64,000 nt of DNA, taken from assembly GCA_949358305.1 (NCBI GenBank), contig OX442315.1:35800427-35864426 (forward strand), given 5' to 3'. The notes under the pieces were generated by a model, which worked only from the letters and a program-made list of their open reading frames with translations, made no database searches and was not told the origin of the DNA. The position numbers and the translations under genes are program-made. Positions 19,820 to 52,100 of this stretch are shown in pieces. Source of the stretch: Strigamia acuminata. Taxonomy: Eukaryota > Arthropoda > Chilopoda > Geophilomorpha > Linotaeniidae. Numbering within the stretch: position 1 is the first letter of the stretch; every line of letters starts with the position of its first letter.

Positions 19820-22800
19820 GAATCAAATGCGTAAAGAATTGGGACAAACTGAGATCGGAAGATCGAAGCTGTGGAAATTCGTGCTCACGGTTGCCCTGCA
19901 AAAATCCGCGAGCAAAATGTATCTGCGACGGTCCTTGCGGTTTCGTCTGCGTCCCACCAGGTAAGAATCTCACAAGGATAAATTATAATCAACAACGTTT
20001 AATTGTGAGACAGATTTAAGTTGCGCGGTCGATTTGGAGGATCCCGTACACGGCAATTTCACTACGCCAAACGGTAAAAAATACTACGCGTTAGCGCTGT
20101 ACGTCTGTGAAACGGGATTTGATTTGATTGGTCCCAATACCAGCATTTGTCAAAGCAATGGGAAATGGAGTGGAAATCCGCCATTCTGTACTCCAGAAGG
20201 TAAAATAAGGATAATCGCCGATAACTTCACTATTCGTTAATTTTGGTTTTATTTAGGCATTCGTTGTGCGCCACCTACATTCGAATTTGAGCATGCGTTC
20301 ATGATGTACAGTACTGTGAAAAATGAGTACTATTTGGGTGATCAAATACAATTTACGTGTGATTTGGGCTATTACAATTCACGAGGAGACATTTTAACTT
20401 CAAAGTAATCCAATAATTTCACTAAGTAAATTTAAAAGCTTAATTTCTAGTTAAATTTCTGTATAGGTGTGAAAGAAAAGAAGATGGCGCTGCTTGGACA
20501 CCAGTTGCATTAACTTGCAGACGTAAATAATTAAATAAAGAAATGACTTAGTATTATCATCTCATTAACTATTACTTTTATATATCAGCCGTTTCCTGTA
20601 GAAAACCAGAAGATATAGATAATGGATATTACGAAGGAACTGGCTTGATTCTTGGCAGCGAAATTACGTATCACTGCAACAAAGGGTATTACCTGATCGG
20701 ATTCACCACCAGAGTTTGCTTAGCTGAAAGAATATGGTCGAGCAGCGAACCCCGGTGTGAAAGTACAGAATTAAATTATAGCATTACCTCATTCAGACTT
20801 AATTGCTGCATTATTTTTTAGTTATTACGTGTTTGGAACCATCGAAAATAAAAAACGGTGACGTTCATTTTGACAACTTACACTATTTATCATCTATTCG
20901 ATACACTTGCAATTTCGGATACGTTTTGGATCGTTCATCATTACGTCAATGTGATCATTTTGGTCAATTTACTGGAGACGAGCCGAAATGTTTAGGTTTT
21001 ACTGTTTCAATAAGGTGGAATCACATTATTAAGCCAGCTAATTTATGGTTTGTTTAAACAGAAATAGATTGCGGTCGGCCTGAAAAACCAAATAATGGAG
21101 ACATTAGCCGTCTCGAAAGAACAACGTTGAATAACAAAGTTTATTACTTTTGTTATGAATATACTAGCATGCATGGTTCGAGAGAAGCGACGTGTGTCTA
21201 TGAAAATAAAGTTGCTCGTTGGTCACCACCACCACCAATTTGCATCGGTAAACCAAACCGTGGGGACTTTGCTCTTTATTTTTGAAACTGGCGCATTACC
21301 TGATCGCGGCGCCAACTGGTGTCCAAATTGAAAAACAAATACACAAGTATCTAAATCTTATGAAATACGGTACCTGTAATAAATTCGGTATTGTGTTGAT
21401 AAAATCGCAAAGTCCCTTTCCGAATGCTGAAATGATAACCATAAGCTAACATATTATAAATTCTGCAGAACATTGTCAAGTACCCAGTATTCACAACGCC
21501 ACTTTCGAGTATAGGACTCGCGAGGTATTTACAGTTGGTTTGAAGGATGTACATATTCTATTATTATTATTAATATTAAACAGATATTTCCAGAAGATTA
21601 TATTGCTCATATGGAAAGTATAAAACTCAACTGCGACTCGGGATTTGAAATAATAGACATCACTAACGGCGCGTCAACATCTGGAATAACCCTAACATGT
21701 ATAAACGTTAAATGGAGTGATCAAATCCAATGCCAACCAGGTAACCGATAAAACAAATGAAATAAAAAATCTCAAAATGATAAACCACCACTTAAATAAC
21801 AGCCAGGTGTTCCATCGATGACTTAAACGTGGAATACTTAAGCGCCCAACATTGGTCAACGCATAATATCCCACACATTGTGAATAATGGCGACAGTATA
21901 CCTTTAGAATGCGATTCCGCCTATCCTGAAGTAGATGCTACTAACTTTCTAAGCTGCGCTTATGGCATCTGGCAATTACCTAACGATGAAATCAAATGTC
22001 GGAAAAGTAAGTTTCACATATCAGGATGTGCAGGCTGTGCAGAATAAACTCTAAATCGATTTTCTTGCTTGCAGAATCCTGCGATGTCGGCCTTATATCT
22101 TTTGAACATGGACAAGTTTTCTTTTACGGGAAAAATGCCCGAAAAGTACATTTTAATGCATTACAATAATATGTACGCAACTTACCACTTTCTCCTCGTA
22201 GCTTGGCAAAATATATGACGGCGAATATCTGGAGTTATCGTGCAGTAAAACCAACTATGAATTGTATATTGACGCTCGTTTAGTGCCTTTTCACTCTTCC
22301 CATGTTTTTTGCAACGATGGTGCGTGGTCGTATAACCAATTTGAATGTTTACCGGGTAGATGTGAGTGCAGTGTACTGGAAGAGAAATTGATAGCCAAAG
22401 GAATGAAACCAATGCCTTGCGACTTTGACAGTGGCATTAGCAGTGGACGAACAGTGCCCTTAAAGTGTTTGGAAGGATATTCTAATCGCACGCACAGAAG
22501 CGCTAAATGTGTCAATACAAAATGGCGAATAGACGATGATGCCAGATGCAAAAGTAAATCTATTTTTTTTTGTTTGTGTGTTTTGGAATTCCCATTGAGA
22601 AGACAAGAACTCACCCACTCAAGTAGTAATTACTCCGTAATTATTTTAAATAGGAAAATGTGATTGTAGTGCATTGAAGCTGCCTGCTTCGATTAATTTA
22701 AAGAAACCATGCTATGATAACTTGAGAAGCAACTCTTCATTGACATTAGAGTGCACAAAATATTTTAGCCAATATTTTGGAAGTAAAGAAGCATTTTGTA

Positions 22801-25466
22801 ATGAGGGTGATTGGATTGTGGATGGATTTTGCCATGGTAAGACAAATTTTGAGGATGAGTATAATTAGTAGTTACTTCACCTCTTGATGACATACAACTA
22901 ATGAATTACCTTATATTAATAGCGTCATGTTTTCAACCAAAAATACCAAACAGTTTTATTTATGGGATTAAAAAATGGGTAATTAAAAAATGTAATAATT
23001 TTTCTTTTGAAATTGTAATTTTATTATAATTCTTCCAGAACTGGGATGCAATTATTGATCACATGACCAGAATTGAAATTATATGTAAAAGTGGATATCA
23101 TTTAGAAAGCAGTGAAAACGCAACTGTACTTCTACAGTGCATTAATGGACAATATGATAACGAAATTCCAAAATGCATCGAAGATATTAGTACCGGTAAG
23201 GCTTTTTATTGATTGAATTGAGCAGTTGTTTTGCTAAGGGGACGATCGGCCAAGTCCCAAAGGTGCTGACTGCCCAATCTAGGCTGGTGGTAGAGAAACT
23301 ACATATGAAATTTGTAAATTGGGTCGATTATTTATTTAAAAAATGGGCCATTATTCACAATAATGCCCGGGCCGATATTTCTTGTCAATCTGCCGCTTGT
23401 GACACATAACAGGTGAGGTGAGTCCTGATATGCGTCTTGTAGTGTTTAAGTGTTTTGTTACCAGTCGGCACTTTGATCATGTGAACAAATAAACATCTCA
23501 GTTCATTACTGTAATACCATGTTCACACTAAGCTTTTGGATCTCATCCGAAACTGCGGATCTAAATCCAAGATTGGTGTGAACATTGAACTCCGTTCACG
23601 GATCTAGATCCGTGTGCCCCACAACTCGAGACGATTGGATTCGGATTGGAATTCATTAAATAATGTCAGCAGTCTGTAGCATTCCATTGCTGCGCATTAC
23701 TAAAACCCAGTTTGGTTTGATGGAATCATATTTTGGTGTGAACACAACTCCATCCAAGTGAATATTGGAACTCTGTTCAGTTGGATCTGATCGGGCAGAT
23801 CAGATCCAGCCAAACTCATCTGTTGGTGTGACTGTGAACATGGTATTACTCGACTAGTACACTTACTATAATACAAGGACATTACACGTCTCACACAGTA
23901 ATTTTTTGCAAGTTTGGAGACCGTCAAAATCCCCAAAAAAGAATGATTTTTTATCTATTACAGAACAGACAACAAAAGTTGATAGCGTGGAAGAATTATT
24001 AAGTCTTACCGAAGATGTCACTTTGCTGACTACTAATTTTCCTGATAAAACACCAAGCTACAACTCTTTTCTACCACACAAGGACAGCCTTCTTGCTTTT
24101 CTATTTGGAGGCGATGAAACTGTTTACCCTGTGGAATCAAAAATAACTAAAGACATTACTAATGAAGACCCAACTAATCTTCCATTTGAAGGAGTAAACA
24201 AAACCGGTTTCTCTTATGAAACAACAATAACTAAAGACATTACTACTGAAGTTCCAACTAATTTTCCATTGGTGCCTAATACTTTTCATCACAATTGGTT
24301 TAACAATGAGCTGTGGAGGTGGACCAAAATATATCTGTTTAGGAATTCTCCAGAAAAAACAACAGCGATTGAAGAGCATACCACAAAAGAGATTAATCTT
24401 GTTGATGAAACAACATATTTCAATATTTTTCCATCTGCATCAATAGATGTTGATAAAAATAGTCTTCCTTTTCCAAGAACTGCAGTAGAAGACATTACTA
24501 CGGAAGTGCCGACAACGACAACTAAAATTAAACATACCGGTAATCGATATAGTGATCGTAAATGCACATACGAACCGAAAGATAAAAACTTACTTGCATA
24601 TTTTAAAGGAAAACAATTGGATGGTGTGTATGGTCAATATCTTTAATTTTTGTTTGTTAATTTACCTGACTGGTTTTTTGGTAGATACTAAGCCAACAAA
24701 TATCAGCTTTAATGAAGTAATTACATTTCGGTGTTACGAAATAACGGACTTCTTGCTAGATGGAGATAAATCTGTTAAGTGTAATTACCTTAAGTGGAAA
24801 GGAATAATACCAACTTGTAGAAAGTTACAGCTACGCAGTGGTAAGCATTGGTGTTAGTCGCCATTCCTCTTACAAGCTCCGCCATCTGGCGGTCGATTGC
24901 CAAACAGATTGCCAAATGCATCCTGCTTTGAACAGCTTTAATTTAAATTTGCATTTTTGTTAAAGCAAAAAAAATAATAGTTAGAATATTGTTTTCATTT
25001 TCCTTTAATTATTTCAACAGTTGAAAACGCTCCTGTTATTACTTATGAGATAGAAGAACGAGACAAATTTGTGGACTACGAAGGAACTTTACACATTCCC
25101 CATGATTCAAAACTTTCACTTAGATGTTGGTGGTTTAAAATAAATGGGAATCCAAAATGGAAGTGGAATGGACAGGAAGTAAATTTTGAAAATGCTCAAC
25201 AATGTGAGTATTGTATAATTTTAAAGGCAAAAAAGTCAATGTAAAATGTTCATATTTTTATAGACTGGAATAATGAAGAATATTACGAATTAGAAATCAA
25301 AGGAGTATCATCAGAACACACCGGAAACTTTACTTGTACAAGTCCACATAATAAAAAGACACATGGAATCGACATTAAAATCGACGAAAGGCCAAAACTA
25401 AAGCGAACGACATCAACATTTCCAACAACTGCTAAATCCTGGTTGCATTCTTGCAGGGATAAATGA
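19820..25466 (+). CDS. WAP-like, 12-sushi, Ig-domain secreted or surface protein
   Basis: Exons: 19820-19960 (Cys-rich module SCSRLPCKNPRAKCICDGPC), then sushi/CCP exons 20014-20199, 20257-20404, 20467-20522, 20589-20762, 20822-20995, 21062-21247, 21469-21524, 21584-21740, 21803-22006, 22075-22145, 22202-22553, 22654-22836, 22923-22978, 23039-23195; Thr-rich linker 23964-24623; last sushi 24685-24840; Ig-like 25021-25203 and 25264-25466 (SSEHTGNFTC before the stop). I count 12 CCPs by their C...G...C...W...C pattern. The start is not resolved. A WAP module before many CCPs is the plan of nematode LEV-9, which clusters acetylcholine receptors; the extra linker, CCP and Ig are not in LEV-9. Function by inference is extracellular adhesion, receptor clustering or complement-like control. 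No C-terminal membrane helix is seen. Confidence 0.85.
23514..23846. mobile_element. TA-flanked MITE in sushi-gene intron
   Basis: The ends are ATACCATGTTCACA and its exact complement TGTGAACATGGTAT, flanked by TA on both sides. The 333-bp interior has repeated GGTGTGAAC and GGATCTAGATCC / CAGATCAGATC palindromes and no reading frame. It lies in the 0.77-kb intron before the Thr-rich linker exon. Confidence 0.82.
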
Positions 25467-30333: not shown

Positions 30334-31820
30334 TTAAGACAAGTTAGAATAACAAATTAAGTTGTGCTTCAAAATCTTCCAATCATCGATCTGGCATTGC
30401 TGACAGCAGTAAGCCGCTCTGTGACATTTGCTGCACTTCAATACTGAACCCATCTTCCCACAGTAACGACAACGACTGGCGTCTGGATCGGCATCAAAGA
30501 GAACATTTTGACCATCATCCACACGAATCAATTGTTTTCCATCCATCGCAATCTTGAAATAAGGGTTTCGAATAGTAATCTTGCATCCATAGCCCAGCTT
30601 ATCATAAATCCAGGTATCTTGATTAGTATTGCAAATTGTCACTCGCTCCACATCCCCATTTCCGTCCTGTACAATCACGTGGATTCCATTCATTCCATGC
30701 ACGGGTTCATCAATAACCACGCAGCTTAACGCCCGCTGCTCGTAAACTCGGTTCGCCAATTGAGACATTTCTTTTAACGTGATCGGTTGCATATCTGCCG
30801 AACTCAGCGGTGCAGTTTGCTTCGGACACCGAATCGTATTGATACTGGACTTCTTACACTCCCCAAAAAGAATAAATGTTTCTTTGACCGTTGTCCTGTG
30901 CGCTATTGTTACCGCAACTCTACCGGGATCGGTCAATTTCGTTTCAGTTAATTCGGCAACAACGACCGGTGCAACATCAATTTGCTGCGAGGGCGCACAG
31001 CAACCAATAAAAGACTCCAAAAGGGATTTTTCCACACATTCAACTGGCAAGAAATATGGTAACAATAATTTCTCCGCTTCCAAACCCATCTTGTAATACT
31101 TTTCACCATCATTTCTACAACTGCCCCGTAACCCTGTTATGTAATAAATTTGGGGTCTATTTATCTCGTCGGATGGCGCCAAAGCCAAATACTTCTCGCA
31201 AGCACGCATCAATACTTTTTTATTAGGATCTGCAGATGCATTCAGAAAAATTGCCTTTAAAAACCAAAGTTTAAAATCATTCGGAAACTTTTCCAAAGCA
31301 GCATTCAGCACTTTCAATCCTTTTGGTATTTCGTCAAATTGAAAGTGTGCAGTGGCCAATGATCGCCGAAACCAAACAAAGTCGGGATAAATCTGAATGC
31401 ATTCCTCGAGCAGTTTACTGTTTTGTTTCAAACAGTTTAGATTATTCTTTACAAGACACACCCGCAAATCCCTATCGAAGGTACTTGGTGTCGTTGTAAT
31501 TTCCATGCCCATCATTTCGGTCACAGTCATCACTCGTCGGCAAAAATCGCTATCGACAGCAAACTCCGAAATGCAAATACTTTCAGCAAGATGGCGAATA
31601 CACTCATCCAAAAGACCTTGTTGAAAGAATTCAACAGCCAGGTCAAAGTGAACGAGCACCTTAATTAGTACTTTGGCGGTCACCGATCCCTTTTTTGAAA
31701 ATTCCTCCAGAACTTCAACATCAAAATCGTATCTCTTGTTAGAAAATGGAATATATTGTTTCTCATATGTCTCAGCCATTTCCGAAATGGTTTGATACAA
31801 TTTGCCACTTCTTCCATGAC
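30334..31820 (-). pseudogene. TPR/Sel1/MYND gene, 3' half, separated by 10-kb insertion
   Basis: This is the C-terminal half of a gene whose N-terminal half is at 41825-43546. It begins, after the insertion, with GHGRSGKLYQTISEMAE, which corresponds to GSGKLYQTISEMAE in the middle of the intact paralogue. It ends with a complete MYND finger (CRYCGKMG, CSKCH, YCCQQCQ, HNLIC). No stop or frameshift is seen apart from the insertion, so the disruption looks recent. An internal Met (31800) would allow a 488-residue product if a new promoter were used. Confidence 0.85.
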
Positions 31821-31822
31821 CG

Positions 31823-33541
31823 TGTGACGATGACCTTTCGATGACGCTATCCGCTCAAAATGTGTATTTTGGCATAACAAGCAAGTCTATCAATTCTAGT
31901 AGTTGAGAGATAAGTTAACAAACCTAAAGTGTGAACTGGGTAAAATAATGAAACCGGTGGTTATCAAGACATAACATGATTTATTGATATATAAATATAA
32001 TCACCGTGAAGTGATTATATTAATCAATTCGCATAAACTACAGTTATACATTAACTATGCCGACAAGTGGCCGTATAAATGGGTAGATAACTATACATAC
32101 AGTTGCCTAACCGGCGCTATGATAATATCAAGTCGGCTTCATCGGGTCAGTAAGATGTCGTCTGAATCGGTTGATTATTTGGTCCTAATTGCACATCGGG
32201 GTCTGGTTCAAATCTGTAATGAAAAAGTTAGTATCCGAGGACGTCCGGTTGACGGTATCTGCATCGCCACAAACTTGGGGCGGTTATTGGTTTAAATGGC
32301 TTGTGAGAGCCATTTACCAATTGACCTCTTATAAGTGGTTTAAGACATTTATAATTGGTGTGATACGTCAAATTGGTTCTTCATACGAGAGTAAACTGTT
32401 GCGAGTTTACAATCATAACTTCTGGTTCCGTGCAATGGATGCATTTATTAGAGTATTACTTTTCAGTAAATACTCGTAATAATTCTGCTTACATAAAGTT
32501 GGCAATTTAGCTACACATTTACTGGCAAGTAAATGCTAATGTAGCTAGTCTTCAGTTTTGTACAGTTCTGGAAGAAGTATCCATGTTTATGCACAATGCT
32601 GAGTTGTGACATAAACTAGCTGGGGATTTAATCTAACTAAACTTTTCCGAGTTTAGTTATTTCAACCCTAATGTTACATTTTTGACACGCTGTTCGGCAG
32701 CCGTGGTTTACTGTAACTGGCAGGCCTTGTGGAACACTTGTTGAATTATATCCGGCCCGACGGGATTCTTACCACTCATCGCCGCGACCTGATCTCCTCA
32801 CGGCCACACAGCCGTCATCGGGCACCCGGACATGGAGGCATCATATCACCCATCTCCACGTCAAGTGTACGCCGTATGTAGGTTGTCATAGGCCCGCAGT
32901 ATAAGGGGCATTGACTGCGCAATCAACAGACAAGCAAGTGTCTGCGCAATCAACATGACAACCGGAGTAGTAGAAAGGGCTCAAGAAAACATATAGTCAA
33001 AATATCTGGTCAAGAGCGAGCTACTTCCTGTTGCGAGGAAGTATATACTCGGGGAAAACAATAGCTTGACCATTGCTCCAATGAGAGCAGTGGTCCCCTG
33101 AATCCCTCCAATCACTGGTCAGAGTGATGGGATACTCAGGACACATTTCCAGTCCAGGTGGTCAACAGGAACTGGATACACAGGCCATAGCTCTCTGCTA
33201 GGTCAGGACAGGAACTGGATAGCGAGGAACACTTTTGGATTAAGTCTTTCAACTTAACCAAGGGGGGTCCGAGCTGGAAGCAGGTGCAGAGGGGTGAGTT
33301 AATCCCCTAAACCTAGTTTTGTGATAACTTGACAAGAGTTGTCACAAAACAGTTTAATATCAATATTTACTTCAATAAATAAAGATAAAGTTGATTCTCT
33401 ACATTGAAATCACATAAAAGTTGCATTTTATGTGATTTTACATCAAACTGGAAATTCTGTTCGAATTTGCCACTTTTGGTCGTCAGCGCCATCTATTGGC
33501 GAAATTGTCGTTATATCGAGTGGAGAAGGCCGTGACCGTCA
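31823..33541. repeat. Left terminal direct repeat (LTR-like)
   Basis: It matches 40104-41822 at a constant offset of 8281; the open frames in both copies translate identically. It contains TATATAC at 33042-33048 and AATAAATAAAG near 33376, which would fit promoter and poly(A) roles for plus-strand transcription. Many hexaloop hairpins occur, for example GTAAACT/AGTTTAC (32391-32410), AACTAAACT/AGTTTAGTT (32635-32658) and ACTTCCT/AGGAAGT (33023-33042). Open frames of 103 and 96 codons have no family resemblance and are probably not genes. Confidence 0.88.
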
Positions 33542-34009
33542 TACATCCCCCTTAATCACTGGAATTATGTAAATAATTACACGTGATTTTCGCCGATAAT
33601 CGTCTCGATATACGACACTGTTCATTGTGGATCAGCAAACGTTACGTATCTTGTAAAAGATATCTAACAATGCAAATATAATAAAGAGTGAGGATTATTC
33701 ATTTCAAATTATATTTTTGACCATTAATAATTTATTCAATCATTAACCGTTCAGGTGACTTCGGAGATGAATTGTTTTCCTGAATTTATACAAAATCAGA
33801 AAAACAACCAATCGTGAAAACTGGCATCGAAAGTATTTAATAATATATTTTGTACAAAATATAAATTAAATCACGTCTTTAGAATATTCTTAATAATTTT
33901 AAGATTATTAATAAATGTTCAAAAATCCGTTTTAATCTTTGAGATCAATCATCAAGTCGACATTCAAAAAAATTAATAATAATTTTTTACAATCATTAGT
34001 AAGTGTTCA

Positions 34010-35541
34010 AACGGATGTTTCATTTCTTTTAATATTTTGATTAAAAATATTAAAAAGAAACCTGGTCCAATTTCTTAGTTTATTTCTCAGAAAAGAAAGT
34101 AAACACAAGAAATTAATCTTCTAATTTTCAAAAGAAAATTTGCTGTTTCATTTCTTTTAATATTTCAATCAAAAATATTAACAAGAAACTCGGTCAAATT
34201 TCTTAGTTTATTTCTCAGAAAAGAAAGTAAACACAAGAAATTAATCTTCTAATTTTCAAAAGAAAATTTGCTGTTTTCATTTCTTTTAATATTTCGATTA
34301 AAAATATTAAAAAGAAACCTGGTCAAATTTCTTAGTTTATTTCTCATAAAAGAAAGTAAACACAAGAAATTAATCTTCTAATTTTCAAAAGAAAATTTGC
34401 TGTTTTCATTTCTTTTAATATTTCGATTAAAAATATTAAAAAGAAACCTGGTCAAATTTCTTAGTTTATTTCTCATAAAAGAAAGTAAACACAAGAAATT
34501 AATCTTCAAATTTTCGTGAGAAAATTGCTGTTTCATTTCCTTTAATATTTTCGATCAAAAATACTAAAAAGAAATCTGGTCAAATTTCTTAGTTTATTTC
34601 TCATAAAAGAAAGTAAACACAAGAAATTAATCTTCTAATTTTCAAAAGAAAATTTGCTGTTTTCATTTCTTTTAATATTTCGATTAAAAATATTAAAAAG
34701 AAACCTGGTCAAATTTCTTAGTTTATTTCTCATAAAAGAAAGTAAACACAAGAAATTAATCTTCTAATTTTCAAAAGAAAATTTGCTGTTTTCATTTCTT
34801 TTAATATTTCGATTAAAAATATTAAAAAGAAACCTGGTCAAATTTCTTAGTTTATTTCTCATAAAAGAAAGTAAACACAAGAAATTAATCTTCAAATTTT
34901 CGTGAGAAAATTGCTGTTTCATTTCTTTTAATATTTTCGATTAAAAATACTAAAAGGAAATCTGGTCAAATTTCTTAGTTTATTTCTCAGAAAAGAAAGT
35001 AAACACAAGAAATTAATCTTCTAATTTTCAAAAGAAAATTTGCTGTTTCCTTTCTTTTAATATTTTCGATTAAAAATACTAAAAGGAAATCTGGTCAAAT
35101 TTCTTAGTTTATTTCTCATAAAAGAAAGTAAACACAAGAAATTAATCTTCAAATTTTCGTGAGAAAATTGCTGTTTCATTTCTTTTAATATTTTCGATTA
35201 AAAATACTAAAAGGAAATCTGGTCAAATTTCTTAGTTTATTTCTCAGAAAAGAAAGTAAACACAAGAAATTAATCTTCTAATTTTCAAAAGAAAATTTGC
35301 TGTTTCCTTTCTTTTAATATTTTCGATTAAAAATACTAAAAGGAAATCTGGTCAAATTTCTTAGTTTATTTCTCATAAAAGAAAGTAAACACAAGAAATT
35401 AATCTTCAAATTTTCGTGAGAAAATTGCTGTTTCATTTCTTTTAATATTTTCGATTAAAAATACTAAAAGGAAATCTGGTCAAATTTCTTAGTTTATTTC
35501 TCAGAAAAGAAAGTAAACACAAGAAATTAATCTTCTAATTT
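34010..35541. repeat. Tandem array, ~128-bp unit, 12 copies, two subtypes
   Basis: Units start at about 34021, 34149, 34279, 34407, 34534, 34664, 34793, 34920, 35049, 35177, 35306 and 35434. Subtype A has TTCTAATTTTCAAAAGAAAA, subtype B has TTCAAATTTTCGTGAGAAAA. The right part alternates A and B, so it has grown as ~257-bp dimers. Each unit carries hairpins with 6-nt loops, such as TTTAATATTT-cgatta-AAAATATTAAA and TTTCT-cataaa-AGAAA. Confidence 0.93.
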
Positions 35542-35799
35542 GCAGTTTGATGTTTTCTTGGGAGGAGAAAATGTAACTGTCCAGTTGAAGTTTTTCCCCC
35601 TTTTGCTCCATTCTTCGAATGACTGCACCTCAGGCGACGGTAGGTGTCTGTCTGACGGTTAATTGTTCTCGCGTCCTCAGGGAGTTTGTATTTCTTCACA
35701 TTGTCTGGCATTTGCAAGATGACAAACAAACTTTATGGATAGAAAATTTGCTGTTGTTTTTGTTACTTCTAATATTTCTATTGGAAATATTAAAAAGAA

Positions 35800-37700
35800 A
35801 CCTTGTCAACTTGCTTACAAGTAAGTCTGATTTTCAGTAGAAAAGCAAACCTGAAAAATTATTTCTAGATTTTTTGAGAAACTAGAGCATAATTCATTTC
35901 CAGTAGATTTATTTTAAGTGTTATAAAAAGTTTCATTCTTATATACACCTCTTTATTTCCAAATTTTTTGAGAAAGGGTTATAAAGAGTTTCATTCTTTA
36001 CCCCTTCCCCCTTTTTCTTCAGAATTATCAGATTCTGTAGAAATATCAAAAATGAAACTCAGTTAAACTTCTTAGTTTAATTTTCAACAAAATAAACATA
36101 AAAAATTTAATTCCCAAAATTTTCGGGAGAAAATTATCGTTTTGTTGTCTTTAGTACTTCTGTCGAAATACTAAAGTCAGACCTTATTTCCACATTTTTA
36201 TTAATCACATTCCTGATTAACAAAACGTTGTTTTGATTCTTAAAATGTTTCTTGTGAGAGAAAACATTATAAAAAGGTTGAAGGTTGGGTGGATGAAAAG
36301 TGACCTTTTGGGGTCAACTTAGTCATTCATCCCCCTTTGCTGGGGTTCCCTCTAAGTTTCCATTGTTTCCAACAAATCTTGTCGGTGCGTCATAATAATT
36401 TTTATTAAAAAAAAAAATGACTCTTCAATTTTACTTTTATTTCTTGCGAAATAATAAATAAAGTACGGTAGTTTCTAATCAATACGAATAATTCCGGGAA
36501 CAATGGTTAATTATTATTTTGATTAGAAATAATAATAACATGGTGATCTGGCAGCTATATTTCCCTGGTTTTAAAGAGAATTTCCTCTAGTTTGTGAGTC
36601 GTTTGCTCCTAGAGGGAGAAAGAGTACAAACTTCGAAAAAAAAACTCTACTTTGAACCAGAATCAAATTTGTATCAACTTTCTTGTAAAAAGAATTTCCT
36701 CCAGTTTGTGAAATCGTTTGCTCCTAGAGGGAGAAAGAGCACAAACTTCGAAAAACTCCACCTTACCAAAAAGTTGATTTCACGTTAAGTCTTAGTTAAT
36801 GTGAATAAATTTGACAGGAAGAAGTTTGATTAATATTTCGATTAGAAATAATAATAACACAGTGGTGTTGTAGTTATATTTTTCTTGTAAAAGAGAAAAT
36901 ACAACAACAAACAATGGTTATAATTTTCTCGCGAAAGAAAAATTACAACACAAAATGTCAAAATGCTCAAATATGAGTTTTCCAACTTCTATCCAAGTTG
37001 TAGAATCTTCAGTTGGCTTTCTTAGTCAAACTTTTTATTCAAAAGAAATTGACTCAAGAAAATCTTCAATTTATTTATATTTCTCGCAAAATAATAAATA
37101 AAGTACGGTAGCCTAATTATTACATTTTTTGTGCAAAAAATGCAACTAGACGGTTGTTACGAATAAATTCGTGGCAGTGTTTAATTAATATTTCGAATGG
37201 AAATAATAACAACACGGTGAATTGTCATCATATTTTTCTTGTCAAAGAGAAAATACAACAAACAAAACAGTGGTTCTAAATTTCTTGTTAAAGAAAAATT
37301 AAAACATCAAAACGTTGGTTATAATTTTCTTGTTAGAGAAAAATTAAAACACAAAACGTCGGTCTAAACTAAAATGGCGACAGTACGCCCTCAAAAATAA
37401 TTTTCCAACATCTGAGTAATATTTCCTTAGCTTAATCTTTTTCGAGAATTAAACTTTTGAAATTTATTAACTCCAAATTTACGGTTTTCCCCTGGCTAAA
37501 TAACTCTTGAAGTTATAAACTAGTGAGAATTCTACATTAATATTTCTACCAAAATATTAAGTAACAAAACCGCTGCAAAGTTCCATGGTTAAATTTTTTG
37601 TATAAAAAAGTAACCTTTGAATTCTTATTTCTTGATTTTTCTTAAAATATTTTTTGCAAAAATATCTCACGGGAATATTTGTGGAAATACAGTTTAATTG
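35800..37700. repeat. Array of diverse short hairpins, first block
   Basis: This has no gene. It is a run of different imperfect palindromes about 25-30 bp long, many followed by ACAAC or AAAAC. Examples: TAATTTTCT-cgcgaa-AGAAAAATTA (36921-36945), TAATTTTCT-tgttag-AGAAAAATTA (37322-37346). ATAATAAATAAAGTACGGTAG recurs near 36450 and 37095. A longer pair, CTCCTAGAGGGAGAAAGAG, occurs near 36606 and 36721. Confidence 0.8.
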
Positions 37701-37771
37701 GGTTTATTTTCTTGTAGGAAAATAAACTCTACAATCTCGCTTTTTCTTGATGCTGAAAAATGGTATCACAT

Positions 37772-38560
37772 CTAACTGGAAGTGACTACCATAAAACTTC
37801 CAAATCGTTCGCGATCACTTATTACAATGTCCAAACGCTCAGGGTTAGATTTATTGTTAGATAAATTCTTTTCCCCTTGTTTTCTTGCTTCGAATAAATC
37901 GCGTCGGTTTTGCCATAATAATTTTTGTTCAAAATTAAATATGAACAGTGCAAATTCAAACATCAGCGATAGTTCGACCACCGGTGGAGGTGGAGGAACA
38001 AGCCGTCTTGGTGAAGTCGAATACGTACGTCGTTCGGGAGTGGAGTTTCGCAACTCTGCCCTCGAATTATTCGCTACAGGTGAAGTTCGTTGGTCCTGTC
38101 GGATCGGTGTACCGACTCGGGGTTGCTGCACATCCGTACGTTCAGTCGACGGAGCCTCGTGGGACTTTGGAGTCGATGCACGTGGCGCCGAAGTTCGTTC
38201 TCGTCTCGGTGAAGACGATTTATCTACGGGTAATGGCATTGGAGCGCGTGGCGGCCCACGCGACTTCTTCTAAGTTGCTGGCGGTCTTCCGTTAATACCT
38301 CCGTGGTTCAGTTCCAAACCGTCCGCTGACTGAGCGGAGCGATCTGACGAACTTCCGGGTTGCTGGTTACGGGCCGTGAACTGCTTAGTTTCGGCCAGCG
38401 AATTGAAGGATCGTATGTCCAAATTGAAATGGCAACAATACGCCTGTAATTCTTCGTCGTCTCGTAGCGTGCGTTCGTCTACGCGTGGAGTGAATGGGTT
38501 GTGAGACCTGTTCTCCTCCTCCTGATTCATCGTCGCGAACAAATCGTGTCGGTGTGTCAT
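37772..38560 (-). pseudogene. Pro/Ser/Arg-rich open frame with one in-frame stop (possible gag-like remnant)
   Basis: Minus-strand frame from Met at 38560, with a single TAG at 38272-38270, continuing in the same frame to 37772. The first part has DERTLRDDEELQAYCCHFNL and a Gln/Ser-rich stretch; the second part has many SP/TP and RR motifs (SSSPRRERTSAPRASTPKS) and five prolines in a row. Composition suggests a disordered, nucleic-acid-binding protein. No zinc knuckle or capsid motif is seen, so gag is only a guess. Its GC content is well above the surrounding element. The phrase AATCG(C/T)GTCGGT...AAAATTAA flanks it at 37900-37940 and 38540-38580. Confidence 0.4.
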
Positions 38561-38607
38561 GGTAATTTTTATTCAAAATTAACAGATACAGGGTGAACTT
38601 CAAAAAA

Positions 38608-38815
38608 AAATCGGCGATAGATTCGGTGTGAGATTACGTACCGTTTAGTACGTAACCGACAAAATCGAACAACAACAAAAATTGGCGATAGGTTCGGTGT
38701 GAGATTACGTACCGTTTAGTACGTAACCGCCAAAATCGAACAACAACAAAAATTGGCGATAGGTTTGGTGTTAAAACGTGTACTGTGGGGTACACGAAAA
38801 ACAACAAGAAAATAA
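38608..38815. repeat. Three ~75-bp tandem copies, each with a strong hairpin
   Basis: The unit contains TTGGCGATAGGTTCGGTGTG, a palindrome and AACAACAACAAAAA. The palindrome is TTACGTAC-cgttta-GTACGTAA in the first two copies (first at 38634-38655). In the third copy it is CGTGTAC-tgtggg-GTACACG: sequence changed on both sides, pairing and loop length kept. Confidence 0.85.
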
Positions 38816-39399
38816 CGCCCAAAAAATAGATTGGAGTACGAAGGATTTTAATACAACACTAGCGCGGAGAAACAGTCACGCCTAAATTAAAACTAGAGAA
38901 AGAATAGTACAACTGATTCTTTAAACTTGGTGTGGGCAAAACACACTTAAACTACAAAAATGAAAATACACTTTTTATACTAAACTAGCGCTTAGGGAGG
39001 TGCGCTTTAAACTACAATGTTTTAACAAAATTACACTTAACTTTACGGCTTTTCGGATGCAAAATGGTCCAAACGAACAAGGTGGTCACGGTCCAAAATG
39101 GTGGTCAAGAGACGTCCAGTCAGTGTGGATGCAAGAATGCAAGTGGTCTTCACACTTCCCAAAAAATGAATTTTGGGGGTTAATCCGTTCAGTGGGATTG
39201 GACAAATAAAAAAATGACACATTTGACGTGTGCCACTCATTCATCACCCAACAATGCATTTCCTTTTCTGGATATGCCACCCACTGAGTTTTGGTCCAAA
39301 TTCTTTTTCGAGAATTTGAACTTTGCCATTCTTGTCAGCAAGATTAACCTGTTTTTTAAGACAAGTCAAAATCGCCCATTCTCCACAGCTGCTTGACAA

Positions 39400-40075
39400 T
39401 CTCCAGTCTCTTTGTAAAGAGAAAATTGTTTTTATTTCTTTTTCGGGAAATAATCACAAAATACTACCATTAGTCACATTTTTGGTGAGAAAATATGACC
39501 TCTTCAGACTACCATCCCAGTGTCGTTAACTTTTCGTACAAAAAGTTAAAGTTCAAGCATTTTGATTAGAAATAACTTAGACAATGGACAGCATCGTAAA
39601 TTCTTCTAGTTGTAGAAACTTCTGTTTGTTTGTCGAGAATCAAAACTTTTTATTCAAAAGAAATGATCCAACAAACGTCTGGCACATTTATTTATATTTT
39701 TCGCGAAATAATAAATAACGTACGGTAGTCTACTTGTTACACATTCTTGTGAGAAAAATGCAACTAGACTCGGGAGACAGTGTTCAAATAATATTTCGAT
39801 TAAAATATTAACAACACTGTGAAATTTGTAATTATATTTTTCTTTTTCGAGAGAAAATACAACAAACAAATCAAAAATCGTAACTTTCTCGTTAAAGAAA
39901 ATCACAACACGAACAAAACGGTTATAAATTTCTTTTTTAAGAAAATTTACAACACGGACATTTAGTCATAATTTTCTGGTTAGAAAAAATACAACTCAGC
40001 CATAATTTTCTTGGTAAAGAAAAATTACAACAAAAATGTCAAAATTCAAAATTTTACCTGAGTTCACTTTTAGCT
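39400..40075. repeat. Array of diverse short hairpins, second block
   Basis: It continues the pattern of 35800-37700. Examples: TAACTTTCT-cgttaa-AGAAAATCAC near 39888, AATTTCT-ttttta-AGAAAATTT near 39928, TAATTTTCT-tggtaa-AGAAAAATTA at 40003-40027. Most are followed by ACAAC. No gene. Confidence 0.78.
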
Positions 40076-40103
40076 TGCAACCTATCTCGGTGGAACCTCC
40101 ACG

Positions 40104-41822
40104 TGTGACGATGACCTTTCGATGACGCTATCCGCTCAAAATGTGTATTTTGGCATAACAAGCAAGTCTATCAATTCTAGTAGTTGAGAGATAAGTTAAC
40201 AAACCTAAAGTGTGAACTGGGTAAAATAATGAAACCGGTGGTTATCAAGACATAACATGATTTATTGATATATAAATATAATCACCGTGAAGTGATTATA
40301 TTAATCAATTCGCATAAACTACAGTTATACATTAACTATGCCGACAAGTGGCCGTATAAATGGGTAGATAACTATACATACAGTTGCCTAACCGGCGCTA
40401 TGATAATATCAAGTCGGCTTCATCGGGTCAGTAAGATGTCGTCTGAATCGGTTGATTATTTGGTCCTAATTGCACATCGGGGTCTGGTTCAAATCTGTAA
40501 TGAAAAAGTTAGTATCCGAGGACGTCCGGTTGACGGTATCTGCATCGCCACAAACTTGGGGCGGTTATTGGTTTAAATGGCTTGTGAGAGCCATTTACCA
40601 ATTGACCTCTTATAAGTGGTTTAAGACATTTATAATTGGTGTGATACGTCAAATTGGTTCTTCATACGAGAGTAAACTGTTGCGAGTTTACAATCATAAC
40701 TTCTGGTTCCGTGCAATGGATGCATTTATTAGAGTATTACTTTTCAGTAAATACTCGTAATAATTCTGCTTACATAAAGTTGGCAATTTAGCTACACATT
40801 TACTGGCAAGTAAATGCTAATGTAGCTAGTCTTCAGTTTTGTACAGTTCTGGAAGAAGTATCCATGTTTATGCACAATGCTGAGTTGTGACATAAACTAG
40901 CTGGGGATTTAATCTAACTAAACTTTTCCGAGTTTAGTTATTTCAACCCTAATGTTACATTTTTGACACGCTGTTCGGCAGCCGTGGTTTACTGTAACTG
41001 GCAGGCCTTGTGGAACACTTGTTGAATTATATCCGGCCCGACGGGATTCTTACCACTCATCGCCGCGACCTGATCTCCTCACGGCCACACAGCCGTCATC
41101 GGGCACCCGGACATGGAGGCATCATATCACCCATCTCCACGTCAAGTGTACGCCGTATGTAGGTTGTCATAGGCCCGCAGTATAAGGGGCATTGACTGCG
41201 CAATCAACAGACAAGCAAGTGTCTGCGCAATCAACATGACAACCGGAGTAGTAGAAAGGGCTCAAGAAAACATATAGTCAAAATATCTGGTCAAGAGCGA
41301 GCTACTTCCTGTTGCGAGGAAGTATATACTCGGGGAAAACAATAGCTTGACCATTGCTCCAATGAGAGCAGTGGTCCCCTGAATCCCTCCAATCACTGGT
41401 CAGAGTGATGGGATACTCAGGACACATTTCCAGTCCAGGTGGTCAACAGGAACTGGATACACAGGCCATAGCTCTCTGCTAGGTCAGGACAGGAACTGGA
41501 TAGCGAGGAACACTTTTGGATTAAGTCTTTCAACTTAACCAAGGGGGGTCCGAGCTGGAAGCAGGTGCAGAGGGGTGAGTTAATCCCCTAAACCTAGTTT
41601 TGTGATAACTTGACAAGAGTTGTCACAAAACAGTTTAATATCAATATTTACTTCAATAAATAAAGATAAAGTTGATTCTCTACATTGAAATCACATAAAA
41701 GTTGCATTTTATGTGATTTTACATCAAACTGGAAATTCTGTTCGAATTTGCCACTTTTGGTCGTCAGCGCCATCTATTGGCGAAATTGTCGTTATATCGA
41801 GTGGAGAAGGCCGTGACCGTCA
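40104..41822. repeat. Right terminal direct repeat (LTR-like)
   Basis: This is the second copy of 31823-33541. Shared sequence extends two bases beyond the CA end (to 41824) before the flank ACTGTTCATC, which belongs to the interrupted MYND gene. Near-identity of the two repeats indicates recent insertion, or recent recombination between them. Confidence 0.88.
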
Positions 41823-41824
41823 TA

Positions 41825-43546
41825 ACTGTTCATCTTGTATCTCTCTCTCCGCCCCTTCATCGACAGATCGGCCGTAGCTAATCCGCTAGTTTCTTCCCAA
41901 CTTTTTATTTCTTTATCAATTTTCGCAAACTTCTCTTTCAATTTCCTAACTTCGGCCTCAAATCCGTCCGATTTTGAAATTGCTTCCAAACTACCGTGGG
42001 ACACGGCCCGCTGATGCCATTCCATCGCTTGCTCGGCATCTTCTGCATTCGTCAGATAATATCTTGCCAGAGTCCACATTGCATCGAAATCAAATTGCTT
42101 CGCTGCATGATTCAGATATTGCACGCCCTTCAGCTCATTTCTTTCCACGCCTGTTCCATTCAGGTAACACAAACCCAGGTTTGAAGCGCCCACAGCGTAT
42201 CCATTATCAGAAGCCCTTTGGTAAAACTTGACCGACTCTTCTAAATCGATGGGCAAACCAATTCCCTTCCTATACATACAACCCAAATCGTTTTCTGCAA
42301 AGGCTATAACACTATTATTGCAAATATCAGATGATTTCGGACTCGATGCAACTTGTTTAAGCAATTTAATGCTTTTTTCTAAGTCTATCTCAACTCCAAC
42401 GCCTAATCTATACATGTTTGCAATATGGTAGAGTGCCTGCGTGCTTTTTTGATCTGCCGCTTTCCAAAGCAAATCCAAAATTATTTTGAAATCCGGTTCA
42501 GGTTCTTCATACACTATCAAGTACATCGCCTTCATTAGGAAAAAGTCCGGAGAACTTTCGTCTCCAGAGTTTATTATTTCTTTTAGTCCGTTAGGAGGCA
42601 TTCCTATTCCAAATCTCTTGTTGACGAGGTCTTTCACGTCTCGAAAGTGGTTTTGAAACAAAATCTCGCGAGGTGATTTCGGTTTCGGGATCCTTCGCTC
42701 GCAGTCATCACGCAGCGAGACAATTTCCATTTTATCCGGTTCCAATTGCAAAGCGATGCTGAAATATTTAAAAGCCTTTTCGTATTTTCCTATAAGTCGG
42801 TAAACGCGGCCTAAACGGTAATAACTGCGAAACCACGCCGGCAACAGTTGAACGGCTCTTATCGCGTCTTCTAAGGATAACTCTATGTTTACGTCATTGG
42901 CAATCATTAAGTAAACAGCTGATCGGTTGGAATATAATTCTCCCAGCAGTTGATTCGAGATTTCCGTCAGTTCGATCGCTTGACTGTAGCATCGGATCGC
43001 CTCTACAAACTTCTTTGCCTCGAATAATGAATTTGCCACGTCTTTCAAGCGGTGGGCGGTCAATTCATTCTCCGGGTCTTGAAAAGTCAGTCTGGCGAAT
43101 AGGTCTTCCACAGATGGTCGAAATTCATTTAAAATGTCTTCAACTTTTCGGGTCTTTCTCTTGTACTCGGCATTCGACATGACCATTTTGTAATTGCGGT
43201 AAACGTCATTCTGCAACATCGACAAGTTGGTTAAACGTAATTTTTGACGTTTGCTCAATCCATTTCCGGCGCCGAAATCCGTCTTCTGGAGGACGTGGTT
43301 GCAAAGTCTCAAATCCCAGAGAGAAACGTTGCCGCATTCGAGCAATTTCTTCTGCCTGCCACTGCTCGTTATCCACGCTCTTCTCCCGACTCCCATTGCA
43401 AACGCTGTTCCTTGATGTGGGATGTTTTTCCACACTCCATTCGAACACATTTTCCATTGTTTCAAAAGAAATTGTCGAATTACGTGATTTGCTTCAGGTA
43501 GACGGAAACAGTTCAATTTAACGTAGTTTTCTTTGTTGGAAGCCAT
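41825..43546 (-). pseudogene. TPR/Sel1/MYND gene, 5' half, separated by insertion
   Basis: The Met at 43546 (MASNKENYVKLNCF) follows directly after CTCTTGCAG, a splice acceptor, so the five codons upstream (MLLLLQ frame) are probably intron and the first exon is non-coding. The frame has three TPR-like repeats (about residues 160-290: DVANSLFEAKKFVEAIRCYS, YYRLGRVYRLIGKYEKAFKY) and four Sel1 repeats (about 370-530: ALYHIANMYRLGVGVE, ENDLGCMYRKGIGLP, GASNLGLCYLNGTGVE, MWTLARYYLTNAEDA). It runs into the element at NSYDGHG, where a stop follows in the terminal repeat. No other lesion is seen. Confidence 0.85.
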
Positions 43547-44094
43547 CTGCAAGAGAAGAAGCATTTTCTTGTTAAATTCACAAATTTATTTTTTGCATTT
43601 ATTCAATTCTTATCAATAAAAAATTAACTGTTACGTGGCATGTAAAAAAGATTTTTAATTTTTAATAATCAAAATACTCTGTATTATCATTTGGGGGGGG
43701 GGGGGGGGGTGTTTCAGTTTTCTTATGTAATTCGGAAGCGGGGGTCGGAAATTTGTTACAACCATGTTAGAGAGGCGGGGGGGGGGGGGGGGTCTAAAAA
43801 TCCCAAATTTTGCGTTACGTAATTTATGGATGTCCCCTAATTATTTCGACCAGATTCATCATGACTGGACATATTAGAATAGAAGAAATACGGTAAATTA
43901 CGCCGTGTTTATCCACTTAAAAATGAAATATATATTTTATATCTGTCAGTTACCGTAATCGTAATCCTAATTGAGAGTCAATAACTTATTCAAAAGCTGC
44001 TTACGGTATGTGCTACTCTGGTTTGCTTCACCTAAAAGAGAAACAAGTTTTCCTTTTCAAGTGTCAAAGTTGATCCTTAAATTACCGTACTGCC
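43547..44094. other. Upstream flank of the split MYND gene, with a half MITE
   Basis: Homologous to 52370-52930. It holds two G-runs (about 43693 and 43779) and a sequence ending GTTACGTAATTTATGGATGTCCCC near 43838; this resembles one end of the MITE family at 63445-63966. No gene. Confidence 0.6.
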
Positions 44095-49153: not shown

Positions 49154-52100
49154 TTAAGTCAAGTTAGAATAACAAATTAACTTGTGCTTCAAAATCTTCC
49201 AATCATCGGTCTGGCATTGCTTACAGCAGTAAGCCGCTCTGTGACATTTGCCACACTTCAATACTGAACCCATCTTTCCACAGTAACGACAACAACTCAT
49301 ATCTGGACCGGCATCAAAAACAACACTTTCGACATCATCCACACGAATCAATTGCTTTCCATCCATTGCGATTTTGGAATAAGGGTTTCGAATCGTAATC
49401 TTGCATCCATAGCTCAGCTTATCATGAACCCAGGTCTCTTGATTACTATTGCAAACAGTCATTCGCTCCACATCCCCATTTCCGTCCTGTATAATCACGT
49501 GGATTCCATTCATTCCAAGCACGGGTTCATCAATAACCATGCAGCTCAACGCCCGCTGCTCGTAAACTCGGTTCGCCAATTGAGACATTTCTCTTAACAT
49601 GATCGGTTGGATATCAGCCGAACTCAATGGTGCAGTTTCCTTCGGACACCGAATCGTATTGATACTGGACTTCTTACACTCCCCAAAAAGAATAAATGTT
49701 TCTTTGACCGTTGTCCGGTGCGCTATTATTCTCGCAACTCTATCGGGATCGGTCAATTTCGTTTCAGTTAATTCGGCAACAACGACCGGCGCAACATCAA
49801 TTTGCTGCGAGGGCGCACAGAAACCAATGAAAGACTCCAAAAGGGATTTTTCTGCACATTCAACTGGCAAGAAATATGGTAACAATAATTTCTCCGCTTC
49901 CAAACCCATCTTGTAATACTTTTTACCATCATTTCTACAACTGCCCCGTAACCCTATTATGTAATAAATTTGGGGTCTATTTCTCTCGTCGGATGGCGCC
50001 AAAGCCAAATACTTCTCGCAAGCACGCATTAATATTTTTTTATTAGGATCTTCAGTTCCATTCAGAAAAACTGCCTTTAAAAACCAAAGTTTAAAATCAT
50101 TCGGAAACTTTTCCAAAGCACAATTCAGCACTTTCAGTCCTTTTGGTATTTCGTCAAAATAAAAGTATGCAGTGGCCAATGATTGCCGAAACCAAACAAA
50201 GTCGGGATAAATCTGAACGCATTCCTCGAGAAGTTGACTGGTTTGTTCAAAACAGTTTAGATTATTCTTTACAAAACACACCCGCAAATCCCTATCGAAA
50301 GTACTTGGTGTCGTTGTAATTTCCATGCCCATCATTTCGGACACAGTCATCACTCGGCGGCAAAAATCGCTATCAACAGCAAACTCCGAAATACAAATAC
50401 TTTCTGCAAGATGGCGGATACACTCATCAAAATGGCCCTGTTGAAAAAATTTAACAGCCAGGTCAGAGTGAACGAGGCCTTTTATTAGTACTTTGGCGGT
50501 CACAGATCCCTTTTTTGAAAACTCCTCCAGAACTTCAACATCAAAATTAAATCTCTTTGTAGAAAATGGCATATATTCTTTATCATGTGCCTCAGCCATT
50601 TCCGAAATGGTTTGATAAAGTTTGCCACTTCCTGGATAACTGTTCTTCAGGTATCTCTCTCTCCGCTCCTTCATCGACAGATCGGCCGTGGCTAATCCGC
50701 TAGTTTCTTCCCAACTTTTTATTTCTTTATCAATTTTCGCAAACTTCTCTTTCAATTTCCTAACTTCGGCCTCAAATTCGTCCGAGTTTGAAATGGCTTC
50801 CAAACTACCGTGGGACACAGCCCGCTGATGCCATTCCATCGCTTGCTCGGCATCTTGTGCATTCGTCAGATAATAATTTGCTAAAACCCACATGGAACCA
50901 ATATCAAATAGCTTCGCTGCATGGTTCAGATATTGCACGCCCTTCTGCTCATTACATTCCACGCCTGTTCCATTCACGTAACACAAACCCAGGTTTGTAG
51001 CGCCGGTCCCGCAGCCATTATCAGAAGCCCTTTGATAAAACTTGATCGCCTCTTCTACATCGATGGGCAAACCAATTCCTTTCTCATACATAACGCCCAA
51101 TTCATTTTCCGCAAAGGCTATGCCACTATCATTGAAGAAATCTGATGATTTCGGACTCGATGCAACTTGTTTGAGCAATTTAATGCTTTTTTCCATGTCT
51201 ACCTCAACGCCAACGCCTAATTTATACATGGTCGCAATGTGGTAGAGTGCCAGTGTGCATTTTAGATCTGCCGCTTTCCAAAGCAATTCCAAAATTATTT
51301 TAAAATCCGGTTCAGCTTCTTCAGAAACTAGCAAGTACATCACCTTCGTTATAAAAAAAGCCGGAAAACTTTCGTCTCCAGAGTTTAATATTTCTTTCAG
51401 CCCGTTAGGAGTCATTCCTGTTCCAAATCTCTGGTTTATTGAGTCGACGAAGTCCTTTACGTCTCGAAAGTTGTTTTGAATCAAAAGCTCGCGAGGTGAT
51501 TTCGGTTTCGGGATCCTTCGCTCGCATTCATCACGCAGCGAGATAATTTCGATTTTATCCGCTTCCAATTCCAAAGCGATGCTGAAATATTTAATAGCCT
51601 CTTCGTATTGCTCTAGAAGTCGGTAAACGCGGCCCAAACGGTAATAACCGCGAAACCACGCCGGCAACAGCTGAACGGCTCTTATCGCGTCTTCTAAAGA
51701 TAACCCTACGTTTATTTCATTGCCAATCATGAGGTAAACAGCGGATCGGTTGGAATATAATTCTCCCAGCAGTTGATTCGAGATTTCGGTCAGTTCGATC
51801 GCTTGACTGTAGCATCGGATCGCATCTACGAACTTCTCTTCTTCGAATAATGAATTTGCCACGTCTTTCAAGCGGTGGGCGGTGTATTCATTCTCCGGGT
51901 CTTGAAAAGTCGGCCTGGCGAATAGGTCTTCCACAGGTGGCCGAAATTGATTTAAAATGTCTTCAATTTTTCGGGTCTTTCTCTCGCACTCGGCGTTCGA
52001 CATGACCATTTCGTGATTGCGGTAAATGTCATTCTGCAACATCGACAAGTTGGTTAAAAGTGATTTTTGACGTTTGCTCAATCCATTTCCGGCGCCGAAA

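Follow-up and report, generated by a model that had tools for sequence, protein, structure and literature searches.

The window analysed here, a stretch of 64,000 nucleotides from Strigamia acuminata (assembly GCA_949358305.1, contig OX442315.1, forward-strand positions 35,800,427 to 35,864,426), contains a long terminal repeat (LTR) retrotransposon at 31823–41824 that carries many short hairpins with a loop of exactly six nucleotides (hexaloops). The element is a non-autonomous, non-coding member of a Ty3/Gypsy family and resembles the large retrotransposon derivatives (LARDs). New here is a pattern in the loops when they are read on the sense strand of the element, the minus strand of the window, with a pyrimidine first, A at the fourth position and T..G or C..A at the edges; the antisense reading does not have it. 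The account that fits best, because of the strand-specific loops, the conserved stems of the window family and a duplicated leader, is that the hairpins may be repeated RNA stem-loop signals read by a protein, most likely Gag in packaging. We hold this account tentatively, at a probability of roughly 0.4. The two LTRs, which enclose an interior of 6,560 bp, are as follows.

31823–33543, minus strand: left LTR (the 3' LTR in sense), TGTGACG...CGTCATA in window orientation, identical to 40104–41824, termini as in other copies.
40104–41824, minus strand: right LTR (the 5' LTR in sense), identical to the left copy, termini as in other copies.

Hairpins were counted as perfect, non-overlapping stems of at least 6 bp with loops of 3–20 nucleotides and compared with dinucleotide shuffles, excluding an array of a 129-bp unit in the interior. 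The LTR has 20 hairpins, 10 of them with a loop of six (60 shuffles: 6.3 and 0.35, with a maximum of 2 hexaloops), and the interior has 63, of which 15 are hexaloops (60 shuffles: 30.0 and 1.57, maximum 4). The corresponding figures are 216 and 14 for the left flank (6 shuffles: 168.7 and 9.3) and 113 and 4 for the right flank (6 shuffles: 104.7 and 5.0). A simpler count that retained overlapping hairpins gives 11 hexaloops in the LTR and 16 in the interior between 35542 and 40103, numbers reached by 0/1000 and 0/400 shuffles, respectively. Each of 26 LTR rows from the genome carries 8–11 hexaloops. Outside the element, 25 hexaloop hairpins lie in about 54 kb of window, against about 11 in the 1.7-kb LTR, which rules out a general trait of the region. 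Six is the peak loop size but not the sole favoured one, since loops of four are raised in the interior as well (14 vs 2.4 in shuffles).

The scan bears out the initial annotation, which had described many hairpins with exact six-nucleotide loops and neighbouring DNA unlike the element. All seven hairpins it quoted were found in place: the four in the LTR occur twice, 8281 bp apart, TTACGTAC also occurs twice (38634 and 38705), and the hairpin of the third repeat copy near 38.6 kb and the one at 36921 occur once each. The last is present but not perfectly paired, with arms of 9 and 10 nucleotides and one bulge. The LTR hairpins below are given for the left copy, each having its second copy at +8281.

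33407–33438, minus strand: LTR hexaloop hairpin, stem 13, sense loop TGCAAC.
33022–33043, minus strand: LTR hexaloop hairpin, stem 8, sense loop CGCAAC.
32634–32659, minus strand: LTR hexaloop hairpin, stem 10, sense loop CGGAAA.
32391–32410, minus strand: LTR hexaloop hairpin, stem 7, sense loop CGCAAC.
32293–32316, minus strand: LTR hexaloop hairpin, stem 9, sense loop CTCACA.
31994–32021, minus strand: LTR hexaloop hairpin, stem 11, sense loop TTCACG.
39789–39810, minus strand: leader hexaloop hairpin, stem 8, sense loop TAATCG.
39526–39549, minus strand: leader hexaloop hairpin, stem 9, sense loop TGTACG.
39297–39318, minus strand: leader hexaloop hairpin, stem 8, sense loop CGAAAA.
39158–39177, minus strand: leader hexaloop hairpin, stem 7, sense loop TTCATT.
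38777–38796, minus strand: hairpin of the third 71-bp repeat, stem 7, sense loop CCCACA.
38705–38726, minus strand: hairpin of the second 71-bp repeat, stem 8, sense loop TAAACG.
38634–38655, minus strand: hairpin of the first 71-bp repeat, stem 8, sense loop TAAACG.
37702–37727, minus strand: interior hexaloop hairpin, stem 10, sense loop CTACAA.
37537–37560, minus strand: interior hexaloop hairpin, stem 9, sense loop TGGTAG.

The sense strand was taken from coding relatives, since six sister interiors (elements of about 11–16 kb) have their long open reading frames (ORFs) on the strand corresponding to the window's minus strand; a plus-strand sense is thereby ruled out. Among 61 distinct family hexaloops without a Watson-Crick edge, listed with some stem mismatches tolerated, 50 begin with C or T, 37 have A at position 4 and 2 have G at position 5; in the antisense reading 7 of the 61 have A at position 4. 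(Loci L018 and L019 stand for a single element that lies on two contigs; the 26 LTR rows include both, for the hexaloop counts as well as for the variability comparisons and reference swaps given below, and L019 is excluded from the loop list.) Sense edges are C..A or T..G in 33/61 loops vs A..C or G..T in 3/61, and flank edges 5/32 and 6/32, respectively. T..G and C..A are the two wobble-type edges, of similar shape, that have the pyrimidine on the 5' side; RNA editing would be a candidate source of them. A hand count of the 29 listed loops of the window LTR and interior, in which A and T are about equally common, gave A at position 4 in 18 and T at position 3 in 4; setting aside two loops having both, the ratio is 16 to 2 (binomial P 0.0013). 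The pattern on the sense strand, missing from the antisense, points to the RNA level. The earlier description of hexaloops on unrelated stems holds; it lacked the minus-strand sense, the limits on the loops, which are not free, the hexaloops of coding relatives and the different loop sizes of sister families.

The inner four loop bases fit GNRA or UNAC, both known as tetraloop types, in 11/35 distinct hairpins in sense vs 5.6% background, and GNRA is also found in 5/34 in antisense. Moreover, 9/14 tetraloop hairpins are closed by T-A, so the loop rule may be a weak pyrimidine-purine edge around four bases.

Among the coding relatives, L057 has a Retrotrans_gag match with a CCHC knuckle, and L054 has reverse transcriptase, RNase H and integrase in Gypsy order, with a protease match just below the curated cut-off. 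The gag frame of L057 holds 5 hexaloops, where 300 codon-preserving shuffles give 0.45 and never attain that number. In codon shuffles of pol the comparison is 3 vs 0.72 for L057 (P 0.037) and 4 vs 0.98 for L062 (P 0.01), and the same comparison found zero hexaloops in ORF3. Two frames of an unrelated Gypsy element nested in a relative have 1 hexaloop each vs 0.63 and 0.47 in shuffles, which excludes a general trait of local Gypsy elements. This nested element is seen at L049 and L050, which represent one 23-kb copy with the second Gypsy in its interior (gag-like and pol frames plus another ORF of 933 aa). Past pol, the longest coding relatives have one more ORF, some 650 aa long (L056:3162-5117 and L058:878-2845), with no clear Pfam family and RNA structure not above shuffles. 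The best of the reverse transcriptase homologues is 46% identical.

The window copy itself has no pol and, in its interior, no ORF longer than 165 aa; with nothing more than a relic of gag it is therefore non-coding and LARD-like. The parts it shares with L057 are these.

38677–40103, minus strand: leader, bearing hexaloop hairpins, 99.1% identical to the L057 leader over the first 1,427 sense bases of the interior.
38270–38572, minus strand: remnant of the beginning of gag, 63% identical to L057 gag over 104 columns.
36430–37352, minus strand: pieces repeating leader hairpin segments, 75–88% identity to L057 leader pieces, within sense interior bases 2752–3674.

In the comparison of the window interior with L057 the gag relic is 75% identical. 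The 99.1% identity of the leader beside this value, together with the repeated pieces, suggests that the leader was kept in step with a coding copy and that its hairpin-bearing parts were duplicated. Coding relatives with related LTRs and leader would be candidate helpers in trans.

In the 26 LTR rows, stems of at least 7 bp vary at 4/116 sites, loops (in a wider set with stems of at least 5) at 17/66 and the remainder at 249/1458, a contrast equalled by 0.2% of circular shifts. With six other copies as reference, stems again fall below the rest (for L045, 13/160 vs 278/1508), and with L020 the figures are 17/134 and 271/1532. The claim that stem sequence varies while pairing stays thus applies between paralogous and sister hairpins, not among these rows. 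The third 71-bp repeat differs from the first two by three adjacent paired double changes and a loop edge, a stem of L062 shows a paired change from G-C to A-T, and family 2 has paired double changes at several pairs. In the stems of the families G.U exceeds A.C by 31 to 15; this strand test says little, because the flanks show a similar ratio (28 to 17).

Several results weigh against reading by a protein, and we set them out with the explanations on which they bear. The loop motif was defined only after the loops had been inspected, so the supporting hexamer counts for Y N M A (A/C/T) (G/A/C) with stems of at least 6 are descriptive and no independent test (sense 16/480, antisense 0/441, flanks 2/1604, nested Gypsy 0/221). 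In pol of L057, loops of 5 nucleotides (5 vs 1.15) and 9 nucleotides (4 vs 0.87) are raised too. Furthermore, the sole 5-kb control, flank slice 20001–25000, has 7 hexaloops vs a shuffle mean of 1.26, with 0/200 shuffles reaching 7; this shows that the shuffles understate local variation and are an imperfect null, as an origin of the hexaloops by chance or composition would have it. Most hexaloops of that slice lack the Y..R edge pattern, and several have stems of A/T runs. Chance is rejected all the same, its likelihood being negligible, by the LTR shuffles, by the density of hexaloops in the LTR relative to the flanks, by their retention in 26/26 rows and by the shared loop pattern.

Other results touch on structure in general. 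The putative primer binding site (PBS) of the element, as a 14-mer, has 109 sites in the genome, and the six loci given are PBS sites beside LTRs; one comes from the window family, four from a second and one from a third. Five sister LTRs (L063, L064, L065, L067 and L068) share the PBS and the LTR start and are rich in hairpins with other loop sizes, having 12–18 hairpins vs 5.6–6.5 in shuffles (four tested). They contain 0–1 hexaloops each, so these LTRs do not share the hexaloop habit. The third family prefers loops of four (LTR 8/18 vs 0.25 shuffled; interior 8/15 vs 0.55). The closely related second-family leaders of L065 and L068 each contain 4 hexaloops, among 15 and 12 hairpins respectively (0.40 in L065 shuffles), with loop sequences unlike those of the window family. 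Loop size is therefore not cleanly fixed by family.

Folding was scored as z for 120-nt stretches against shuffled controls on both strands. Sense and antisense values are -1.56 and -1.73 for the LTR, which is equally strong on both strands, -1.81 and -1.17 for the interior, -2.93 and -1.99 for the 129-bp array, the strongest of the regions tested, and -1.56 and -1.34 for gag-pol of L054. The nested Gypsy gives -1.18 and -0.79, ORF3 -0.12 and -0.19, and the flank -0.09 and -0.19. Folding below shuffles across LTR, interior, array and gag-pol (sense mean z -1.56 to -2.93) agrees with genome-scale ordered RNA structure, which exists in some RNA viruses. Selection may have favoured folding throughout, for stability, shielding or compaction, with the six-nucleotide loop a family habit and no protein reading it. 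The z values, well below zero even in the unrelated nested Gypsy and near zero in flank and ORF3, and the hairpin-rich sisters are consistent with this, and structure alone needs no loop reader, because the nested Gypsy folds well without a hexaloop excess. Folding alone does not, however, demand the narrow, strand-specific loop length and bases of the window family. We consider general structure a serious rival, though on balance an unlikely one.

A second serious rival, which we judge quite unlikely, is a copying bias, in which template switching during reverse transcription or replication perfects imperfect palindromes without selection and the loop size reflects the geometry of the switch. 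Single templated events could account for the neighbouring double changes of the third 71-bp repeat and for the change in L062. Covariation was counted formally as double-paired cells against the same count with partners slid. Family 2 gives 20 vs 4–15 (10 vs 1–5 for stems of at least 7), with 58 broken cells vs 56–73, the window LTR 15 vs 0–17, and family 3 none; the compensatory changes for which the initial annotation proposed a test are thus modest in one family, within the slid range in the window LTR and nil in the third. The stems of family 3 are as variable as the rest (12/180 and 90/1265), which, in a hairpin-rich family, fits copying bias better. The earlier hint of structural constraint holds for the window family. 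T..G and C..A edges are about equally used (19 and 14), as for a process blind to strand. Against the bias, the loop middle is asymmetric between strands, stems less variable than loops are not a necessary outcome of it, and the nested Gypsy, reverse transcribed too, shows no hexaloop excess.

The same near-equality of the edges, which are mutually reverse-complementary, and the equal folding z of the LTR on both strands would also suit a role in DNA, as cruciforms or single-strand hairpins in strand transfer, integration or chromatin. The excess of A at loop position 4 in sense over antisense speaks against it, as do hairpins spread over leader and gag and not just at the element ends, and we regard such a role as very unlikely.

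If the hairpins are instead signals read by a protein, the element RNA would carry many dispersed stem-loops, and an RNA-binding protein would read the loops at many weak sites. Stems would need only to pair, whereas constraint on the loop would fall on its length and key bases. To move, the non-coding copy would depend on Gag-Pol supplied by coding relatives, keeping LTRs and leader, with leader hairpin segments re-duplicated in its interior. RNA viruses such as MS2 have dispersed packaging stem-loops that share a loose loop motif on differing stems (PMC6281560). The element likewise has many stem-loops along its RNA, differing stems and a loose shared loop motif, set post hoc, but the viral signals were shown for coat proteins and the putative ones here belong to a retrotransposon. 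In Ty1 RNA, kissing hairpins are tied to dimerisation and packaging (PMC5454406). Both cases have hairpins in retrotransposon RNA, but those of Ty1 are few, near the 5' end and with complementary 7-nt sequences, whereas the element has a dispersed series with a fixed loop length. By analogy with these two systems, the likeliest reader would be the family's own Gag, with its CCHC knuckle, during packaging.

A more specific proposal, which we find doubtful, is that a family-specific code of hairpin loops, made of many degenerate stem-loops over LTR, leader and gag, marks the RNA for its own Gag, that other loop sizes keep sister RNAs apart, and that the non-coding element is a parasite copying the signal. 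How LTR retrotransposons select their own RNA among cell transcripts is little understood, as stated for Ty1 (PMC5454406), and a dispersed, family-specific loop pattern would, if true, be a testable answer. It would also account for the way in which LARD-like elements without coding capacity move along with a helper, and would bring the concept of packaging signals, developed for RNA viruses, to retrotransposons. Even without a packaging function, the families are a clear natural case of hairpin accumulation in an RNA intermediate.

The identification of an LTR element made earlier is confirmed by the identical direct repeats, a polypurine tract and a 4-bp target duplication, beside a putative PBS. 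Its start at 31823 was kept, and its end was moved from 41822 to 41824 on the basis of the termini.

31819–31822, no strand: target duplication, left copy ACCG, with one mismatch to the right copy.
41825–41828, no strand: right-hand target duplication, ACTG; the paralogues L070 and L071 have the site empty.
40084–40101, minus strand: putative PBS, sense TGGAGGTTCCACCGAGAT, the same stretch adjoining other LTRs.
33544–33553, minus strand: polypurine tract, sense AAGGGGGATG, directly before the 3' LTR in sense.
34016–35541, no strand: array of about 12 copies of the 129-bp hairpin-bearing unit.

The PBS begins two bases (CG) past the 5' LTR in sense, and we take it to match the 3' end of an animal tRNA-Gln; none of the six PBS 14-mer loci read in the genome is a tRNA gene. 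No Rfam family scored above its gathering score in the window; known RNA families, like tRNAs, are rejected there. In the 237.5 Mb of genome searched (157 contigs), the LTR has at least 42 matches with 83–100% identity, a lower bound because scoring covered 40 of the 624 candidates. Between the two LTRs of an element there are 0–1 differing sites in 10/13 elements, with differences at 7 and 8 in the element present on two contigs and at 19 plus gaps in one. As the LTR pair is identical, the window element is young. The target duplication is exact in 13/13 other paired elements (two being the doubled one), and an early impression of insertion without duplication was ruled out by these copies. 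At 31821–31822 the left duplication reads ACCG rather than ACTG despite the identical, hence young, LTRs; the two letters 5' of the left LTR are the same as those 5' of the right LTR in window orientation.

LARDs, known for example from barley, have LTRs around a long, structured, non-coding interior and are thought to be moved by helpers. The window element agrees with them in its LTRs and non-coding interior, but differs in retaining a gag relic and a fresh leader and in a structure made of many short hairpins with one loop size. With Ty3/Gypsy elements it shares the LTRs, 4-bp duplication and polypurine tract, and has a putative PBS, and its coding relatives have gag, reverse transcriptase, RNase H and integrase in Gypsy order; it differs in hexaloop hairpins spread over LTR, leader and gag. 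We know of no Gypsy element with such dispersed hexaloop hairpins, from a limited search of the literature.

The insertion is recent and lies within a gene.

30334–43585, minus strand: host TPR/Sel1/MYND gene (ORFs 41792–43585 and 30334–31854), split by the element.

Joining its flanks with a single ACTG restores an open frame, and two paralogues, L070 (95%) and L071 (92%), both compared, show the uninterrupted site. The TPR/Sel1/MYND gene family is expanded: it has another 24 DNA matches, of which 21 lie on this contig at 35.63–35.86 Mb, and one match lies inside the window at 50651–51436.

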